Source of the DNA: an uncultured Chloroflexota bacterium
GTDB taxonomy: Bacteria > Chloroflexota > Anaerolineae > Anaerolineales > UBA4823
Length of the DNA: 35,183 nt
Direction: 5' to 3'
NCBI GenBank assembly: GCA_903871905.1
Contig: CAIQIV010000761.1
Span: forward strand, 1-35,183
The notes under the pieces are model-generated. The model did not search any database. It was not told where the DNA came from and was given only the letters and a program-made list of their open reading frames with translations. How positions within the stretch are numbered: position 1 is the first letter of the stretch; the number at the start of each line of letters is the position of its first letter. Both the position numbers and the translations under genes were made by a program. Below are positions 16,257 to 24,056 of this stretch, one piece after another.

Positions 16257-16340
16257 GCAGATGGAGGGGATCCTTTATGGGGGGGTGAACATCCTTTAAT
16301 GAGAGTGATATTTGGACTTTGATCCTCTGGTTTGGGCGGG

Positions 16341-16369
16341 TTGCCAATCTGTTTAGAGACTGTTATACT
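16341..16369 (+). promoter_or_regulatory. Sigma70-type promoter of the radical SAM operon
   Basis: TTGCCA (16341-16346) and TATACT (16364-16369) with an exact 17-base spacer. Expected start near 16376, giving a leader of about 34 bases with AGGAGA before the ATG at 16410. Confidence 0.75.
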
Positions 16370-16409
16370 TTGGGGGGATCACAATTTATTGGTGTGTGGT
16401 AGGAGACGA

Positions 16410-18479
16410 ATGGCAGAATATTCTCAACGGATTAGCACCTTGCTTCCACGCTTGCCCCTGGAAGGGAATATAGACCTGACGTATCGCTGCAACAATACCT
16501 GCCAACATTGCTGGTTGTGGCTGTCGCCGCGAGCTCACCAGCAGGCGGACGAGCTGACCTTTAGCGAAATCTGCCAGATTGCCGATGAAGCACGAGCCAT
16601 GGGAACCCGCCGCTGGAATATTTCTGGCGGCGAGCCGATGCTGCGCCCGGATTTTCCCGAAATTTTTGATTATCTCACTGCAAAGTCAAGTGGATACAGC
16701 TTGAATACCAACGGTACGCTGATCACCCCGGAGATCGCCCGCCTGATGACCCGTAAAGGCAGCAAGATGGTGGCGCTGTACGGGGCGACCCCTGAGGTCT
16801 ATGATACTGTAACCCGCAACCCAGGGGGATTTGAACTTTTAATGCAGGGAATTGAAATGCTCAAACAGGCTGGCGCCGGGTTCATCATGCAGCTGATCCC
16901 GATGCGTCAGAACTGGCACGAGTGGGATGCGATGATCAGGCTGGCAAGGTCCCTTACCTCTCATTACCGGTTGGGCGCTCCCTGGCTTTACCTGTCTGCG
17001 AATGGTGACCCACGGCGCAGAGCAGAGATTGCTGACCAACGCCTGCCGCCCCGTGAAGCGCTGTTATTAGACCCGCCACAACTTCCGGATGACCTGCCGC
17101 CGCAGCTCGGGAGTGCCCTGGCGATGGGTGAGACAGCGCTGATGCCATCCTGCGGCATCCCGGAGGCCAGTGACGACCGCCTGTTTGCCCGCTGCATCGC
17201 CGGGCGGAAAGAGTTTCATATTGATCCCTACGGGGGAATGACTTTCTGCACTTTCATTAAACATCCAGATCTACGGTATGATCTGCGCCGCGGCAGCTTT
17301 CGCCAGGCCTGGGAAGAGTTTATCCCTTCCCTGGCGGATATGGTGCGTGGCGGGGATGAGTTCCGCCAGAACTGTGGTTCGTGTGACCGCCGCGAAGATT
17401 GTCGCTGGTGCGCAGTTTACAGCTACCTGGAAACCGGGCGCTTTACTGCCCCAGTACCCTACCTGTGTGCTGTGGCTGAGGAGACGCGAAAGTATAAAGA
17501 AGAATGGCCTGTACTCCATCGCCGCTACTTTCGCATTGCGGGCATCACTGTGCGTGTCGAAAGCGACCTGGATTTCTTCGAATTTCCGTTCAAACCTGAG
17601 TTCTCAGCCTTTGCAGTGGAAGGCCCAGGGGAGGATATGGTTACCCTGCGCCATCATTTTTACCTGCCTGAACTGCAGGAGAAGGACCTGGGGGAAGAGG
17701 TATATCATCGGGTGCCCTGGTCCATCTGGCGCAAGAACGGCTCCTGGTTTTACCTGGGTATTTCAGATGGGGTACAGGCTGGTTTGCACCGGGTAGCCCA
17801 GTTTAGCGCCGATTATTCCCGCGGGGTAATCTTCAGCCCGCCGCGCGATATCGAGCTGTTGCAAAGGACAGGCTGGAACTCAATTTCAATGTTCCCCACG
17901 GACCAGATCTGGCTGGCGCCGCTGCTGGCGGACCGACAGGCGGTGCTCATCCATTCCGCCGGCCTGGTGGTCAATGGCGCCGGGTTGGCCTTCATCGGTC
18001 ACTCCAGCGCCGGTAAGTCGACCACGGTCACCTTGCTTAAGGATGCAGCCGGGATAGGTGAGGCGCCTCCCCAGGTTGAGATCCTGTGTGATGATCGCAA
18101 TATCCTGCGCCGGTGGGAGGACGGCTGGCGCATCCACGGCACGTGGAGCCACGGCACGGTGAGCGATGTATCCAATGGCGCAGCGCCGTTGTGTGCCATC
18201 TTGTTCATCGAGCAGTCCCCATGTAACGAGATCCTCCCCATTGTGGACCGCAAGGAAATCTGGAAGCGCCTGCTGGCGACTTTGATCCGCCCTATGGCGA
18301 CGCCTGAGTGGTGGCAAAAGGAGCTGGATATCTTGCAGAAAGTGGTGGATGAAGTTCCATGTTATTTGATGCGTTTTGATAAAAGTGGGGCAATTGTCAA
18401 AGAGCTGCTGCGCCTGGTGAAAGATGTGCGGGGGCTGCAGGACATCGAGAGCTCGACTGCGGAATTGGGCGTGGGGTGA
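16410..18479 (+). CDS. Radical SAM/SPASM enzyme fused to an HPr-kinase-like domain
   Basis: 689 aa from the ATG at 16410 (AGGAGA upstream); the track start at 16332 lies within the promoter. The radical SAM core (about 18-230) has CNNTCQHC (Cys27, 31, 34) binding the SAM [4Fe-4S] cluster and the SGGEPMLRPDF motif. A SPASM region follows (about 260-360; IDPYGGMTFC, then CGSCDRREDCRWC and YLC) for auxiliary clusters. The last 300 residues resemble HprK: Walker A GHSSAGKST (530-538), then ILCDDRN and HGTWSHG. HprK homologues in some lasso-peptide clusters phosphorylate the precursor; SPASM enzymes commonly modify ribosomal peptides. First gene of a five-gene operon. Fusion of the two enzyme types in one chain is unusual. 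Substrate unknown. Confidence 0.88.
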   Translation: MAEYSQRISTLLPRLPLEGNIDLTYRCNNTCQHCWLWLSPRAHQQADELTFSEICQIADEARAMGTRRWNISGGEPMLRPDFPEIFDYLTAKSSGYSLNTNGTLITPEIARLMTRKGSKMVALYGATPEVYDTVTRNPGGFELLMQGIEMLKQAGAGFIMQLIPMRQNWHEWDAMIRLARSLTSHYRLGAPWLYLSANGDPRRRAEIADQRLPPREALLLDPPQLPDDLPPQLGSALAMGETALMPSCGIPEASDDRLFARCIAGRKEFHIDPYGGMTFCTFIKHPDLRYDLRRGSFRQAWEEFIPSLADMVRGGDEFRQNCGSCDRREDCRWCAVYSYLETGRFTAPVPYLCAVAEETRKYKEEWPVLHRRYFRIAGITVRVESDLDFFEFPFKPEFSAFAVEGPGEDMVTLRHHFYLPELQEKDLGEEVYHRVPWSIWRKNGSWFYLGISDGVQAGLHRVAQFSADYSRGVIFSPPRDIELLQRTGWNSISMFPTDQIWLAPLLADRQAVLIHSAGLVVNGAGLAFIGHSSAGKSTTVTLLKDAAGIGEAPPQVEILCDDRNILRRWEDGWRIHGTWSHGTVSDVSNGAAPLCAILFIEQSPCNEILPIVDRKEIWKRLLATLIRPMATPEWWQKELDILQKVVDEVPCYLMRFDKSGAIVKELLRLVKDVRGLQDIESSTAELGVG

Positions 18480-18482
18480 TAT

Positions 18483-19727
18483 ATGGAAGGAGCTTATTCC
18501 CGTCGAGTCCAGCCTCACCAGTTCAGGGTTTACAAACCGGGCGGCCTGCACATGGGCAGCCTGGATATTGAGCTGACTGAGCGTTGTAACAACGACTGCA
18601 TCCACTGCTGCATCAACCTGCCGGCTGGCGACCGGCAGGCTCGGGCGCGAGAGATGACCACCGACCAGGTGAGGCGCATCCTGCGCCAGGCCGCAGATCT
18701 TGGCGTTATTCGGGTGCGCTTTACCGGCGGCGAGCCGCTGCTGCGCCCGGATTTTGAAGAGCTGTATCTGTTCACCCGCCGCCTGGGGATCAAGGTCCTG
18801 TTATTCACCAACGCCCGCCTGCTGACCCCGCTTCTGGTAGAGATGTTTGCTAACATTCCTCTCCGCGCGCCGATTGAGATCACGGTCTACGGCCTGCGTC
18901 CTGCATCATATGACGCAGTCAGCCGCGTTCCAGGCTCTTTTGCCCAGTTTCGTAGGGGGGTAGAATTGTTGAGTGAGCGGAATATTCCCTATGTTCTCAA
19001 GAGCGTGGTGCTGCCTCCCAACCAGGAAGAGTTGGAAGAGTTTGAGGCCTGGGCGGGGTCTATCCCCTGGCAGGGTGACCGCCGGCCTTCTTTGGCAATG
19101 TTTTATGATCTGCGCAACCGCCGCGATGACCTTGAAAAGAACCGCCAGATAGAGCGTTTCAGGCTGTCGCCTGAGTCGGGGCTGCGCATCCTGATCAGGG
19201 ATGAGGAGCGGTTTCGGAAAGAACGGGCTGAGTTTGCAGCCAGATTCATGGGTCCAGCCGGCGATCACCTGTTGAACTGCGGTATCGGACAAGGGATGAC
19301 GGTCGATGCTTATGGCCGGGCGCAGCCCTGTCTTGGCATACGCGCTCCTGAGCTGACCCTGGACCTTTTTCCGCCCACAGCCGGCCTTGATGGCATTGGT
19401 CTGGGCACTGCTCTGGAACATTTTCGCAGCCTCGCCGGGTTGACCACCACCAATCCTGAGTACCTGCGCCGCTGTGCCCGATGTTTTCTTAAAGGCCTGT
19501 GTGAGCAGTGCCCGGCTAAATCCTGGGCAGAATATGGCACTCTCGATACCCCGGTAGAGTATTTATGCCAGGTGGCGCACGCTCAGGCAGTTCACCTTGG
19601 GTGGCTGCAGGAGGGGGAGCATGCCTGGGAGGTGGAGGACTGGCAGTCCAGGTTAAACGGACCCGGGGGGAATGGAGAGCAGCAGGCAGCCGGGCGCGCC
19701 CGGGCGAACAGGATGGAATTGAATTAA
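18483..19727 (+). CDS. Radical SAM/SPASM peptide-modifying enzyme (second)
   Basis: 414 aa, starting three bases after the previous stop, so probably translationally coupled. CNNDCIHC supplies the SAM-cluster cysteines (about 32-39), followed by TGGEPLLRPDF and a TIM-barrel core to about 230. The SPASM part has NCGIGQGMTVDAYGRAQPC and CARCFLKGLCEQCPA, so at least one auxiliary cluster is expected. It is clearly paralogous to the third radical SAM gene: both read RCNNDC, INLPAGD and TGGEPLLRPDF at matching places. The C-terminal 35 residues are charged and Gly/Arg-rich, without an assigned role. The PqqD gene follows. Role inferred: modification of a peptide or protein carried by the PqqD protein. 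Confidence 0.9.
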   Translation: MEGAYSRRVQPHQFRVYKPGGLHMGSLDIELTERCNNDCIHCCINLPAGDRQARAREMTTDQVRRILRQAADLGVIRVRFTGGEPLLRPDFEELYLFTRRLGIKVLLFTNARLLTPLLVEMFANIPLRAPIEITVYGLRPASYDAVSRVPGSFAQFRRGVELLSERNIPYVLKSVVLPPNQEELEEFEAWAGSIPWQGDRRPSLAMFYDLRNRRDDLEKNRQIERFRLSPESGLRILIRDEERFRKERAEFAARFMGPAGDHLLNCGIGQGMTVDAYGRAQPCLGIRAPELTLDLFPPTAGLDGIGLGTALEHFRSLAGLTTTNPEYLRRCARCFLKGLCEQCPAKSWAEYGTLDTPVEYLCQVAHAQAVHLGWLQEGEHAWEVEDWQSRLNGPGGNGEQQAAGRARANRMELN

Positions 19728-19752
19728 ACAGGGTTTGATCAGGAGTAAATGC

Positions 19753-20055
19753 ATGGATTTGGTCACGATGGATAGTGTGTGCTTTCCCTCCAAAGATGTG
19801 GTTGCGCGGATGATTGAAGGAGAAATAGTGATTGTCCCGATCGCCTCCGGGATTGGAGATGCAGAGGATGAGCTGTATTCGCTTTCTCCGACGGGACAGT
19901 CGATTTGGGAAAAACTGGATGGGGAAAAGACCCTGGGCCAGGTCGCCCAGGCGTTGGTGCAGGAGTACGAGGCCCCACTCCAGGAAATAGAAGATGATGT
20001 GCTGGGGTTTGCCAGCGAGCTGGTTCGCCGCCGCATCCTGGAGCTGAAAAACTGA
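19753..20055 (+). CDS. PqqD-like peptide chaperone (RiPP recognition element)
   Basis: 100 aa from the ATG at 19753, which has AGGAG seven bases upstream; the track's TTG start (19735) would overlap that site. The pattern (LYSLSPTGQSIWEKLDGEKTL, then a helical half with VAQALVQEYEAP, EIEDDVLGF and ELVRRRILEL) is the winged-helix PqqD fold that binds leader peptides and presents them to radical SAM/SPASM partners. Cytoplasmic. Its place between two SPASM enzymes and next to a protease-like gene is the strongest sign that the operon acts on a ribosomally made peptide. No Cys or extra domain is seen. Confidence 0.88.
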   Translation: MDLVTMDSVCFPSKDVVARMIEGEIVIVPIASGIGDAEDELYSLSPTGQSIWEKLDGEKTLGQVAQALVQEYEAPLQEIEDDVLGFASELVRRRILELKN

Positions 20056-20074: not shown

Positions 20075-21091
20075 ATGATGGATGAAGCCCCTTTTACCCG
20101 CCAGGGTGAGCCTCTGCGCCTGACAAACCATGCTCAACTGGAACTGATGTGTGGGGTGATCGAGCGAGGCGCAACCTTCCGCTTCAGCGCGCGTGGTTAC
20201 AGCATGCTGCCCTTTATCCACGATGGGGATGTGCTCACCATTTCTCCCCTTGATCCTCCCCTGCAGGTTGGCGCCGTGGTGGCTTTTATCCGTCCGGGTT
20301 GGGAAGTGCTGGCGGTGCACCGGGTGGTGGCGCAGAAGGGAAGTGAGTACCTGATCAAAGGGGATAACTGCATCCAGCCGGATGGGGTTATCCCGGCGGC
20401 GCAGCTCATAGGTCAGGTGGTTCGGGTGGAACGCCGGGGACGCCGGGTCGGTGGGGGGCTGGGCGCATCGGGGGCGTGGATTGCCCGTCTGTCACAGCGC
20501 GGTTTCTTCATCCGCCTGCGCTCATTTCTTGACCTGCCGCGCCGGGCAGCAGCGGCTGTGTTGTGGCGTCTGCAGAAGCTGGGGCTGTACCGCCGCTGGG
20601 CGCGCCATCGAGGTTTGCAGGTGGTTATCGATGAAGCCCGGGACGACGAGCTGGATTTGCTGGCCCAGCGATTGAACCCGGGGATCTGGCTGCCTCCCAT
20701 GCGCCGGGTCCCGGAGGTTAATACATACGTGGCGCGCCTGGGAGGCGAGGTGGCTGGCATGGTGGAACTGGTGCGCCGGCCTCCTGAGTTTGGTCCGCAT
20801 GCTGGCCACTGGCTCTACAGTCTGCATGTCTGGCCCCGTTATCGCGGCTTCGGGCTGGGCGAGTTACTCAGCTGCCGTGTGATCCGCCAGGCAGCGGCAG
20901 AGGGGGCGGCTGAGCTGCGCTTGCTGGTCAAGTCGAACAATACTCCGGCGATTCAACTATATCGTAAGCTGGGTTTTGAGGTTGTGGATGGCAGCGAGCT
21001 GGCAGAAGTACTTGAAAAAGATAGGCTGCTGCTGATGCGCCTTCATCTGCAGCCTGGAGATGCAATTTTTACCGGTAATCAACAAGGATGA
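20075..21091 (+). CDS. S24/S26 signal-peptidase-like domain fused to a GNAT acetyltransferase
   Basis: 338 aa. The N-terminal domain (about 30-125) has GYSMLPFIHDGD with Ser43 in the GxSMxP motif of S24/S26 peptidases, then VLAVHRVV and IKGDN. His82 sits where bacterial signal peptidase I has Lys, as in ER- and archaeal-type enzymes, which use Ser-His. There is no N-terminal TM, so it may work in the cytosol. After a basic linker, the C-terminal half (about 180-330) is a GNAT domain with LHVWPRYRGFGLGELL (acetyl-CoA loop RGFGLG) and NNTPAIQLYRKLGFEVV. It could cut a leader and acetylate the new N-terminus; that is inference. Two ATGs are adjacent at the start; the second (20078) is better spaced from AGGTGG. 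Confidence 0.85.
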   Translation: MMDEAPFTRQGEPLRLTNHAQLELMCGVIERGATFRFSARGYSMLPFIHDGDVLTISPLDPPLQVGAVVAFIRPGWEVLAVHRVVAQKGSEYLIKGDNCIQPDGVIPAAQLIGQVVRVERRGRRVGGGLGASGAWIARLSQRGFFIRLRSFLDLPRRAAAAVLWRLQKLGLYRRWARHRGLQVVIDEARDDELDLLAQRLNPGIWLPPMRRVPEVNTYVARLGGEVAGMVELVRRPPEFGPHAGHWLYSLHVWPRYRGFGLGELLSCRVIRQAAAEGAAELRLLVKSNNTPAIQLYRKLGFEVVDGSELAEVLEKDRLLLMRLHLQPGDAIFTGNQQG

Positions 21092-21145
21092 CGGATAGGA
21101 TGCCAGGGCATGTGGATGGCCGGGTACCAGAAAGCAGGTGAGAGG

Positions 21146-22264
21146 ATGACCCATACAAGCACAGGCGAGATCCAGGATTTTCATTTGTGGGATAAGCTGA
21201 TCAGCAAACGCACACCGTTCTCCTTCGATCTGGAGGTAACCGCCCGCTGCAACAACGACTGCCGTCACTGCTATATTAACCTGCCGGCGGGTGATATGGA
21301 GGCGCGCGGGCGTGAGCTGAGCCTGGGTGAGATAACAGACATCGCCTCGCAGGCAGTAAAAATGGGTACGGTGTGGTGCTTGCTGACCGGTGGTGAGCCG
21401 CTGTTACGCCCCGACTTTGCCCAGATTTACATGGCTCTCAAGCGCCTGGGCCTGCTGGTTTCGGTTTTTACTAATGCCACGGCAATCCAGGATGAGCACA
21501 TCCAGTTGTGGAAGAGGTATCCACCGCGGGACATCGAGGTCACTGTCTATGGCGTCACCCAGGAAACATACGAGCGTGTCACCCGCCGGGCTGGTTCATA
21601 TGAAAATTTCCGGCGTGGATTAGACCGCCTGTTTGCTGCGGGGATCCGGGTGCGGTTGAAGGCGATGGCCATCCGCTCCAACCTGGAAGAACAGCCTGCA
21701 ATAGCCAGGTTCTGCCGCCAGTACACCAAGGATTTCTTTCGTTTCGACCCGCAGCTCCATCTGCGGTATGACGGCAACGCTGAGCGGAATGATGAAATCC
21801 GCCAGGAGCGTCTGTCACCCGCACAGATCGTTGCCCTGGAGCAGTCGGATGAACAGCGGATGCAGGTGATCGCCGAGCACTGCAGGGAATTGGTTAACCA
21901 GGAGCTCAACCACTATGGCTGCAATCACTTGTTTCACTGCGGGGCGGGCAAAGGCAGTTTTTCGGTAAGCTATGACGGCCAGTTCCGTCTGTGCTCCGCT
22001 CTATGGGGGCCCGGGACCACTGCTGATCTGCGCCGCGTACCCCTGGCGGAGGTCTGGAACAACCTGGTGCCTCAGGTAAGGGATTGGCGCTCCTCCCGCC
22101 AGGAGTACCTGGATACCTGCCGGAAGTGCGCCCTGGCTAACCTGTGCCTGTGGTGCCCGGCACATGCATACCTGGAAAGTGGCGAGCTGGATGGCGAAAC
22201 GCCGTATTTCTGCGCCGTTGCCCATGCCCGCGCTGCGGTTATCCAACAGAACTTGCCCGGGTAA
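21146..22264 (+). CDS. Radical SAM/SPASM peptide-modifying enzyme (third)
   Basis: 372 aa from the ATG at 21146 (GCAGGTGA upstream); the track start at 21110 adds 12 residues with no ribosome site. CNNDCRHC gives the SAM-cluster cysteines (about 37-44), with TGGEPLLRPDF. The SPASM part has HCGAGKGSFSVSYDGQFRLC and CRKCALANLCLWCPA, ending YFCAVAHA. It is a close paralogue of the second radical SAM enzyme, including the INLPAGD run just after the third cysteine, but is shorter at the C-terminus. Last gene of the operon; no obvious terminator follows before the next promoter. Role inferred: a second, distinct modification, or the same chemistry at another position. Confidence 0.9.
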   Translation: MTHTSTGEIQDFHLWDKLISKRTPFSFDLEVTARCNNDCRHCYINLPAGDMEARGRELSLGEITDIASQAVKMGTVWCLLTGGEPLLRPDFAQIYMALKRLGLLVSVFTNATAIQDEHIQLWKRYPPRDIEVTVYGVTQETYERVTRRAGSYENFRRGLDRLFAAGIRVRLKAMAIRSNLEEQPAIARFCRQYTKDFFRFDPQLHLRYDGNAERNDEIRQERLSPAQIVALEQSDEQRMQVIAEHCRELVNQELNHYGCNHLFHCGAGKGSFSVSYDGQFRLCSALWGPGTTADLRRVPLAEVWNNLVPQVRDWRSSRQEYLDTCRKCALANLCLWCPAHAYLESGELDGETPYFCAVAHARAAVIQQNLPG

Positions 22265-22288
22265 TCCTGAAAATCGCGCTGGATGCGC

Positions 22289-22318
22289 TTGACATAACTC
22301 GTACCTCCCCTGTATACT
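22289..22318 (+). promoter_or_regulatory. Near-consensus sigma70 promoter
   Basis: TTGACA (22289-22294) and TATACT (22313-22318) with an 18-base spacer, just after the radical SAM operon. It gives the GNAT/ADP-ribosylglycohydrolase gene independent expression, with a start near 22325. Confidence 0.8.
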
Positions 22319-22341
22319 ATAGCCAACCTGCCCAATCCCGT

Positions 22342-22362
22342 GCCGCAGAGATTTTCTGCGGC
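22342..22362 (+). promoter_or_regulatory. Hairpin in the 5' leader of the GNAT/ADP-ribosylglycohydrolase gene
   Basis: GCCGCAGA and TCTGCGGC form a perfect 8-bp stem with a 5-base loop (GATTT), 17 bases after the expected transcription start. It is not followed by a T tract, so it is more likely a leader structure or mRNA stabiliser than a terminator. Confidence 0.5.
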
Positions 22363-22411
22363 TGAGTGGTTTAAGCTGATCGACAATTTTGAAATCCATC
22401 CATGCACAGGT

Positions 22412-23923
22412 ATGATTGAGGTGACATTGGACGAAAAGACAGACACTGGGCAGGCGCTTGAATGGCCTACGAATTATCCCGCTGATTGGATAGAAGATAT
22501 TACCCTCAAGGATGGGCTGCAGGTGCACCTGCGTCCAATCCTGCCGTCGGACGCGCCGCGTTTGCAGGAGGGATTCAAATACCTTTCACCGCGCTCGATC
22601 TATATGCGCTTCTTCGAGACTTACAAGAGCCTGCCGGATGAGATGGCTCAAAGCTTCAGCAATCTGGATTACCAGGAGCGCATGGCCTTCATCGGCGAAA
22701 TTGATATCGACGGGCAGAGGCGCATCATTGGGGTTGCACGGTTTGGTATGCTTGGCCCGGAAAGGCCGGGCATGGCGGAGAGTGCAGTGGTCGTTGCTGA
22801 TGACTTTCAGCGCCGGGGGCTGGGATCAATGTTGGTCCAGAGGTTGGTGAATTACGCCTGTTTGCACGGAGTGCAGTCCATGCTGGCAACGGTTCACATA
22901 TCAAACCTGGCGATCCTCAATTTCATCCGCAGTAGCGGGTTTCTCTTTTCACGTAAGATGTTAGAGCCAGGCGTTTTTGAGATTACCATTCATCTGCCTT
23001 CTCGAGAGAGTTTCCAGGGCAGCCTGCTAGGCCTGGCGGTGGGGGATGCGTTAGGCGCACCGGTTGAATTCATGGCGCCGGGATCTTTTCCCCCTGTCCA
23101 AGGGATGCTGGGGGGGGGAACATGGGGCCTGAAACCAGGCCAGTGGACGGATGACACCTCCCTGGCTCTCTGCCTGGCTGCAAGCCTGGTGGAGAGCGGG
23201 GGGTTTGACCCGGCTGACCAGATGCAGCGCTATACCCGCTGGTGGAAGCAGGGGTACATGAGCAGCACAGGTTTTTGTTTTGATATCGGCAATACCACAC
23301 GCGCCGCCCTCGAGCAGTTTGCCCGCAGTGGCGAACCCTACAGCGGCCCGACCGATCCCTCGCTGGCAGGCAACGGATCGCTGATGCGCCTGGCGCCAGT
23401 GCCCATGTTCTACGCTCGCCGGGCGGATCTGGTCCTGCGCATGTGCGCTGACAGTTCGCGCACCACCCATGGCGCACGCCAATCGGTGGATGCCTGCCGT
23501 TACTTCGGCGGCCTGCTGTTGGCTGCGTTCTATGGTGTTGAAAAAGATGTGCTGCTCTCTCCCCGCTATTCGCCAGTACTCAATGCCTGGGAGGAAGAAC
23601 CGCTGCATGAAATGGTAGACACGGTTGCTGCTGGCTCGTTCAAGCTGCGCCAACCGCCGGCGATTCGCGGGGCCGGGTACGTGGTGGATTGCCTGGAGGC
23701 AGCCTTGTGGGCATTTTACAACTCGGATGACTTCCGCAGCGGAGTCCTGCTGGCGGTTAACCTGGGCGATGACGCGGATACCACCGCGGCCGTGTACGGC
23801 CAGCTCGCCGGTGCGTATTACGGCGTGAAGGGTATTCCGGAAGAATGGCTGGAGCAGTTGTACCAACGCCCGCTGCTCGATGACTATGCTGGACGGCTGT
23901 TTTCACAGGTCTGCACCCGCTGA
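22412..23923 (+). CDS. GNAT acetyltransferase fused to an ADP-ribosylglycohydrolase
   Basis: 503 aa from the ATG at 22412; the track's GTG at 22340 has no ribosome site and would put the leader hairpin in the coding part, though neither start is well supported. The N-terminal GNAT (about 35-190) has VHLRPILPSDAPRLQEGF and YMRFF, the style of the acetyltransferase domain of Pat-type protein acetylases, and VADDFQRRGLGSMLV for acetyl-CoA. The C-terminal domain (about 205-500) is an ARH/DraG-type hydrolase: GLAVGDALGAPVEF, WTDDTSLALCL (245-255), GNGSLMRLAPV and NLGDDADTTAAVYGQLAG, so both Mg-binding clusters are intact. It should remove ADP-ribose from a protein or nucleic acid target. The two activities in one chain suggest paired control of modifications. 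Confidence 0.87.
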   Translation: MIEVTLDEKTDTGQALEWPTNYPADWIEDITLKDGLQVHLRPILPSDAPRLQEGFKYLSPRSIYMRFFETYKSLPDEMAQSFSNLDYQERMAFIGEIDIDGQRRIIGVARFGMLGPERPGMAESAVVVADDFQRRGLGSMLVQRLVNYACLHGVQSMLATVHISNLAILNFIRSSGFLFSRKMLEPGVFEITIHLPSRESFQGSLLGLAVGDALGAPVEFMAPGSFPPVQGMLGGGTWGLKPGQWTDDTSLALCLAASLVESGGFDPADQMQRYTRWWKQGYMSSTGFCFDIGNTTRAALEQFARSGEPYSGPTDPSLAGNGSLMRLAPVPMFYARRADLVLRMCADSSRTTHGARQSVDACRYFGGLLLAAFYGVEKDVLLSPRYSPVLNAWEEEPLHEMVDTVAAGSFKLRQPPAIRGAGYVVDCLEAALWAFYNSDDFRSGVLLAVNLGDDADTTAAVYGQLAGAYYGVKGIPEEWLEQLYQRPLLDDYAGRLFSQVCTR

Positions 23924-23982
23924 CTGGCGTGCCAGGAAGCCCTGTTTTCATCCGTGACTCCAGAACAAATGGATTGATTTTA

Positions 23983-24022
23983 CAGGCTGCCCCTGGGAAC
24001 TGGATTTCCCATGGGCAGCCTG
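23983..24022. terminator. Large hairpin between convergent genes
   Basis: CAGGCTGCCC-c-TGGGAA, a 6-base loop, then TTCCCA-t-GGGCAGCCTG gives a 16-bp stem with one mismatch. No T tract follows on either strand, so it is an atypical terminator or an mRNA 3'-end structure shared by the two converging genes. Confidence 0.6.
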
Positions 24023-24056
24023 ATCGAGCCGGTGAGATGAAGAGTCTGGACCGGTG

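Follow-up and report, generated by a model that had tools for sequence, protein, structure and literature searches.

In an uncultured Chloroflexota bacterium we found that an S26-type peptidase domain and a GNAT acetyltransferase are encoded as one protein (S26-GNAT), which probably works in the cytoplasm and finishes, in two steps, the product of a radical SAM RiPP pathway akin to those of lasso peptides and of linear polyphosphorylated peptides (LPPs). Its gene lies in the window, that is, the whole stretch of 35,183 nucleotides that was analysed, within a tight plus-strand run in the order radical SAM-HPrK fusion, radical SAM, PqqD, S26-GNAT and radical SAM (table 1). The radical SAM version of the pathway, its precursor family and the fusion of protease and acetyltransferase are new here; none of the three was found reported in the open literature searched, which took in only a minority of subscription journals. 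The range of the SipW-type leader peptidases, described from Bacillota in 2026, would thereby widen to include a radical SAM pathway of phyla that have been little studied. Moreover, a natural protease-acetyltransferase fusion could serve as a compact tool to release and cap peptides.

Table 1. Features of the S26-GNAT gene and its cassette in the window
Feature	Position	Strand	Basis or remark
Radical SAM/SPASM enzyme fused to HPr-kinase-like domain	16410..18479	+	motifs; separate HPrK genes elsewhere
Second radical SAM/SPASM-like enzyme	18483..19727	+	PF04055, CNNDCIHC motif
PqqD-family leader-binding protein (RRE)	19735..20055	+	PF05402, E 1.6e-15
S26-type (Ser-His) peptidase domain and GNAT acetyltransferase, one ORF	20075..21091	+	338 aa
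S26 half, about residues 1-152, without membrane helix	20075..20530	+	end approximate, as in unfused homologues
Ser43 codon, predicted nucleophile	20201..20203	+	29/29 sequences
His82 codon, predicted general base	20318..20320	+	29/29 sequences
Asp97 to Asp103, GDN...D box	20363..20383	+	Asp97 29/29, Asp103 25/29
GNAT half, about residues 153-338, with its own N-terminal helix	20531..21088	+	boundaries agree with separate L101 GNAT gene
R-Y-R-G-F-G-L-G, residues 255-262, acetyl-CoA binding motif	20837..20860	+	alignment of three close fusions
Third radical SAM/SPASM enzyme	21110..22264	+	PF04055, PF13186, CNNDCRHC motif

The fusion protein and its predicted active site

The reading frame, recomputed from the sequence, starts with ATG at 20075 and stops at 21089-21091, and its length of 338 residues matches the earlier description. 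Its first 116 residues match TIGR02228 (signal peptidase I, archaeal type; E 1.9e-9, below the equivalog cut-off) and Pfam Peptidase_S24 (2e-6, above gathering), while GNAT PF00583 covers residues 213-301 (2e-14). The GNAT half matches the GNAT fold and contains the acetyl-CoA motif RxxGxG/A, in which R255, R257, G258, G260 and G262 are invariant across the three close fusions (window, L060 and L061). Both halves form one chain in these three independent genomes, with 47-49% identity over the whole length, and a sequencing error is thus ruled out. No transmembrane helix was detected: the highest Kyte-Doolittle 19-residue mean was 1.39 in the fusion and at most 1.71 across the 29 sequences aligned. 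Because there is no membrane anchor or hydrophobic segment, we rejected a classification as secretory signal peptidase. The earlier note had described a signal-peptidase-like domain fused to a GNAT and lacking a membrane anchor, and this description is confirmed by the reading frame, by the TIGR02228, Peptidase_S24 and PF00583 matches and by hydropathy.

AlphaFold2 models of the S26 half and of the full-length protein were built on five sequences and are of modest confidence. The model of the S26 half (mean pLDDT 66) supports a signal-peptidase fold: its Foldseek matches were the signal peptidases SipA, at the top, and SpsB, and also LexA. Among solved structures, SEC11A matches this half best by sequence. 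The full-length model matched many GNATs by fold.

Gly41, Ser43, Met44, Pro46, Gly66, His82, Arg83, Gly96, Asp97 and Gly113 do not vary across the 29 aligned sequences, with Ser43 in the context G-Y-S-M-L-P and His82 in V-H-R-V. Judged by its GxSMxP serine, HR-box histidine and GD...D box (Ser, His and GD in 29/29), the S26/S24-fold domain is of the archaeal/SipW/SEC11 Ser-His type, and the likeliest third catalytic residue is Asp103. A Ser-Lys dyad was rejected, the position being His in 29 of 29 sequences. In the archaeal/SipW/SEC11 branch of S26, His instead of Lys is the normal state. The prediction of a Ser-His S26 enzyme from Ser43 and His82 thus held for both residues, but not the implied oddity of a His in place of Lys.

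The cassette and its probable precursor peptides

For the radical SAM-HPrK gene, the ATG at 16410 was chosen as start over a TTG at 16332. The product contains CxxxCxxC, a SPASM-like CxxC...CxxC and the Walker A motif GHSSAGKS, and its second half is matched by separate HPrK-like genes in other loci. The window PqqD also matches the lasso PqqD and PQQ PqqD models, both below cut-off. Two radical SAM/SPASM proteins together with a PqqD-like protein also occur in the SynChlorMet cassette (NCBIfam TIGR04248-04251); membership was rejected, all proteins scoring far below the family cut-offs (62-79 bits vs 400; PqqD 27 vs 100). On the 3' side of the cassette, at 22340-23923 of the window, lies a second GNAT fusion, of a GNAT with an ADP-ribosylglycohydrolase (NF041672, 309 bits, below cut-off), which was not found in the cassettes of the five relatives compared.

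The probable substrate of the cassette is a family of small Cys-rich peptides with the motif KxWxxPELxVLxRxxPEEAVLxxCK. Genes for such precursors lie inside the clusters L060 (two), L041, L062, L063, L101 (two), L102, L103, L104 (four), L105, L106 and L107, and 11 of these precursors belong to clusters L101-L107. One example occupies a gap of the L060 cassette (L060:2379-2564, MENKAQPKKEWTKPELTVLVRNKPEEAVLTTCKVSGGDGPDAYNNGCGYLICSVDCANGGSS). The close-type precursors have a Cys-rich core that begins near an invariant Cys-Lys, and 16 of 17 end in Ser, the other in Thr; L104 encodes four different precursors in one cluster, each ending in Ser. Around the proposed cut site the residues are variable among precursors. 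A cut rule of a small residue two before the Cys was considered, and the first precursors have T, A or G there; it is weakened by later ones with E, I or L, and we therefore claim no exact cut site. The close-type precursors match no Pfam or NCBIfam family above cut-off, and with this family in hand the chemistry becomes testable.

No small ORF with the motif was found in the gaps of the window operon (16257-16409, 22265-22339 and 23924-24056). A precursor profile was built from five cassette precursors, leaving out the C599 and G039 sequences. In the window's own genome it matched contig C599 at 2541-2726 (E 3e-13; 61 aa, MDKLKKTCWEKPQLLVIVRSQPEEAVLITCKCDGWGDAQSTNFGCYQDAQSCTVCSTYGLS), and in G039 it matched next to the rSAM-HPrK gene (E 1.5e-16). 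In a scan of 199 genomes of the class, strong matches occurred only in G000, G039, G155 and G195, and the rSAM-HPrK protein was found in the same four and also in G064, where it is fragmented at the end of a contig. G155 and G195 had contributed to the profile and were excluded from the chance calculation; among the 197 genomes left, both remaining precursor genomes (2/2) fall among the three remaining cassette genomes, with a chance of 3/19306 (about 1.6e-4) when kinship is ignored. In a reversed-sequence control the profile gave nothing better than E 0.1. The tetranucleotide make-up of C599 resembles that of the window (r 0.917; other genomes 0.27-0.78). The C599 sequence, the only candidate for the window, lies on a different contig and is unlinked to it; contamination of this draft genome is estimated at 8%, and no RiPP enzymes were found on contig C599.

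Shorter and weaker cousins of the precursors (KxYxKPxV...VLGxCK) occur in looser S26/PqqD/HPrK clusters of the window's class, and these too match no NCBIfam family above cut-off. The looser clusters with S26, HPrK, PqqD and radical SAM genes in this class (L040, L043, L044, L046, L053 and L054) often adjoin short Cys-containing precursor-like peptides and a secreted protein of about 1000 aa, which by eye resembles a C25 (gingipain-type) peptidase. A second S26 subfamily (SMxPTLPPGC; L048-L052) has HPrK and PqqD neighbours, and one of its loci encodes a different precursor-like peptide (L050:1691-1918, KKLWEKPAIVIERSLVAEAQGG...).

Relatives with fused, separate or no acetyltransferase

A scan of GTDB with the single fusion protein as query returned no relative, and one with the alignment of three fusions returned four loci. 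In total four fusions were found, three in Chloroflexota and one in the phylum to which a KSB1 genome belongs. The fusion is present in just 2 of the 14 genomes of the family that holds the two other Chloroflexota fusions. The fourth fusion (L102; 345 aa) is only 27% identical and lies in a looser cluster of PqqD, radical SAM, precursor, HPrK, S26-GNAT and ABC exporter genes. Wide occurrence of the fusion away from PqqD or radical SAM genes had been named as an argument against a role in peptide maturation; all four fusions have both neighbours. Two weak A3 matches in the window's genome (L065 and L066) were inspected and dismissed as chance.

We examined 14 close cassettes in two phyla: the window, L060, L061, L041 and L062 from Chloroflexota, and L063, L101 and L103-L109 from the phylum of the KSB1 genome. 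In each of the 14 the S26 gene occurs together with PqqD and radical SAM genes; gene order varies, and HPrK is a separate gene in L101 and L107. The GNAT is fused to the S26 domain in four genomes and encoded by a separate cassette gene in two clear and two weaker cases. In the clear cases, L101 and L104, a separate GNAT gene lies beside the S26 gene and starts with the helix that in the fusion comes after the S26 half; in the weaker cases, L105 and L108, the GNAT genes within the cassette are more distant. Domains that are fused in some genomes and adjacent in others are a classical sign of one shared pathway. Since the separate GNAT gene sits inside the same cassette in other genomes, a role of the GNAT in the same pathway as the S26 peptidase is supported. 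No GNAT was found in the cassettes L041, L062, L063, L103, L106 and L107; acetylation would thus be optional and outside the core of the pathway. In a tree of S26 halves, the L102 fusion fell outside the group (99/98) formed by the close cassettes; this suggests two separate fusion events rather than a single origin of all fusions, although the long branches keep it tentative.

Other genes were also observed in these loci. SAM-dependent methyltransferase-like genes occur in two of the GNAT-free cassettes (L041:10435-11256 and L063:4757-5398) and possibly provide an alternative tailoring step. Two fusion genomes have sulfotransferase-like genes near a precursor or PqqD gene (L060:5097-5669 and L069:3-581). 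At L042:9871-10842 an S26 domain is followed by what appears by eye to be a protein-phosphatase domain (HCAANMRVS stretch).

Proposed pathway, rival readings and known systems

By analogy, the assignment of the S26 half as leader peptidase is well supported, because LppS, a SipW-like peptidase whose gene neighbours encode an RRE and an HPrK kinase, was demonstrated in 2026 to act as the RRE-dependent RiPP leader peptidase of LPPs in Bacillota (PMC13381572). LppS cuts its precursor only with the RRE and requires S29, H68 and D93 (PMC13381572), and its Ser29-His68 spacing of 39 residues is the same as that of Ser43 and His82. Moreover, discrete RREs bind leader motifs of the WxxPxL type in lasso and LPP systems (PMC13381572). 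The S26-GNAT gene likewise has genes for a discrete RRE and an HPrK kinase as neighbours. That the S26 domain might be a leader peptidase working beside PqqD had been proposed in the earlier note, and the 14/14 close cassettes, the matching precursor family and the LppS precedent support this. To our knowledge, an S26-type protease for RiPP leader removal was unprecedented before 2026. Cleavage and acetylation in one chain had also been thought undescribed; this stands for the peptidase-acetyltransferase fusion, which was not found in the literature searched, but not for the S26-type leader peptidase itself, known since May 2026.

Based on the leader motif, the C-terminal Ser, the LppS precedent and the equal Ser-His spacing, we infer cleavage, cut site, phosphorylation, acetylation and their order as follows. 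PqqD would bind the leader stretch W-x-x-P-x-L of the small Cys-rich precursor, the three radical SAM enzymes would modify the core, and the HPrK-like domain would phosphorylate the C-terminal Ser. The PqqD-bound precursor would then be presented to the S26 half, which would cut near the conserved P-E-E-A-V-L-x-x-C-K junction via Ser43, His82 and an Asp, and the tethered GNAT half would then acetylate the product, most likely on the freed N-terminal amine. That the GNAT caps the N-terminus set free by cleavage is plausible by analogy with microviridin and goadsporin. The complete version, a soluble bifunctional enzyme that performs an RRE-assisted Ser-His leader cut and then N-terminal acetylation for unreported radical-SAM, C-terminally phosphorylated, Cys-rich peptides of Chloroflexota and KSB1, is advanced tentatively, with confidence a little short of even.

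It is also conceivable, though unlikely, that the S26 half removes the leader while acetylation by the GNAT half falls on a core side chain, such as the invariant Lys of Cys-Lys, the fusion delivering both activities to the RRE-bound substrate. Side-chain acetylation has a precedent in albusnodin, a lasso peptide in which a Lys is modified by the GNAT AlbT (PMC8498205), and Cys-Lys stands at the presumed core start of the close-type precursors, but this Lys is equally conserved in the GNAT-free cassettes L041, L062 and L063. The solved-structure matches of the GNAT half include the N-terminal acetyltransferases Naa50, RimI and Ard1 alongside side-chain and antibiotic acetyltransferases, and such a mixture does not decide the acceptor. 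Antibiotic and spermidine acetyltransferases are among its best sequence and fold matches, as would suit a GNAT that provides self-protection or acts on another cellular target and is merely co-expressed with the peptidase. Matches of this kind are expected for any GNAT, however, and the GNAT travels with the cassette, fused and unfused, at differing positions; we regard such a role as improbable. For the S26 half, a leader-binding or scaffolding module that has lost protease activity would agree with SipA as best fold match; such a role has been proposed for some signal-peptidase homologues, among them the inactive SipA of S. pyogenes. A loss of protease activity is very improbable, as all 29 sequences retain Ser, His and the GD box and LppS requires the same residue types (PMC13381572).

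The preferred reading, leader cleavage followed by N-terminal acetylation, can be compared with several known systems. Fold and catalytic residues are common to S26-GNAT and signal peptidase I of the SEC11/SipW type, whereas S26-GNAT has no membrane anchor and is encoded with RiPP genes. With LppS and the LPPs it shares the Ser-His-Asp peptidase of SipW/archaeal type, the discrete RRE (PqqD) and the HPrK kinase, and the LPP leader has [Y/W]xxP. In contrast to the LPP systems, the window has three radical SAM enzymes, with HPrK fused to one of them and GNAT fused to the peptidase; the core is Cys-rich and the phyla differ. The words 'radical SAM' and 'acetyl' are absent from the main text of the LppS paper (PMC13381572). 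The LPP precursor motif YxxPxVLxHQxIxFETxxS was not found in the precursors described here, and the NTP transferase and exporter of the LPP core cluster are absent from the window cassette, an ABC exporter being present in L102.

In microviridin and goadsporin biosynthesis, once the leader has been removed, a GNAT (MvdB and GodH, respectively) acetylates the N-terminus of the peptide (PMC13039773, PMC5303826); unlike S26-GNAT, MvdB and GodH are separate proteins of other RiPP classes with other leader proteases. Paeninodin-type lasso peptides share with the present system a discrete RRE, the W-x-x-P leader motif, an HPrK kinase and a C-terminal Ser, which the HPrK kinases of paeninodin-type clusters phosphorylate (PMC8498205), and in some clusters (here L060 and G039) nearby sulfotransferase genes. 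The macrolactam cyclase (C) and cysteine leader peptidase (B2) of lasso clusters were not found among the genes that surround the window's cassette, which has radical SAM enzymes instead and is not a lasso cluster. In some lasso clusters a nucleotidyltransferase is fused to the leader peptidase B2 (PMC8498205), and the fusion of a tailoring enzyme with a leader peptidase thus has a precedent.
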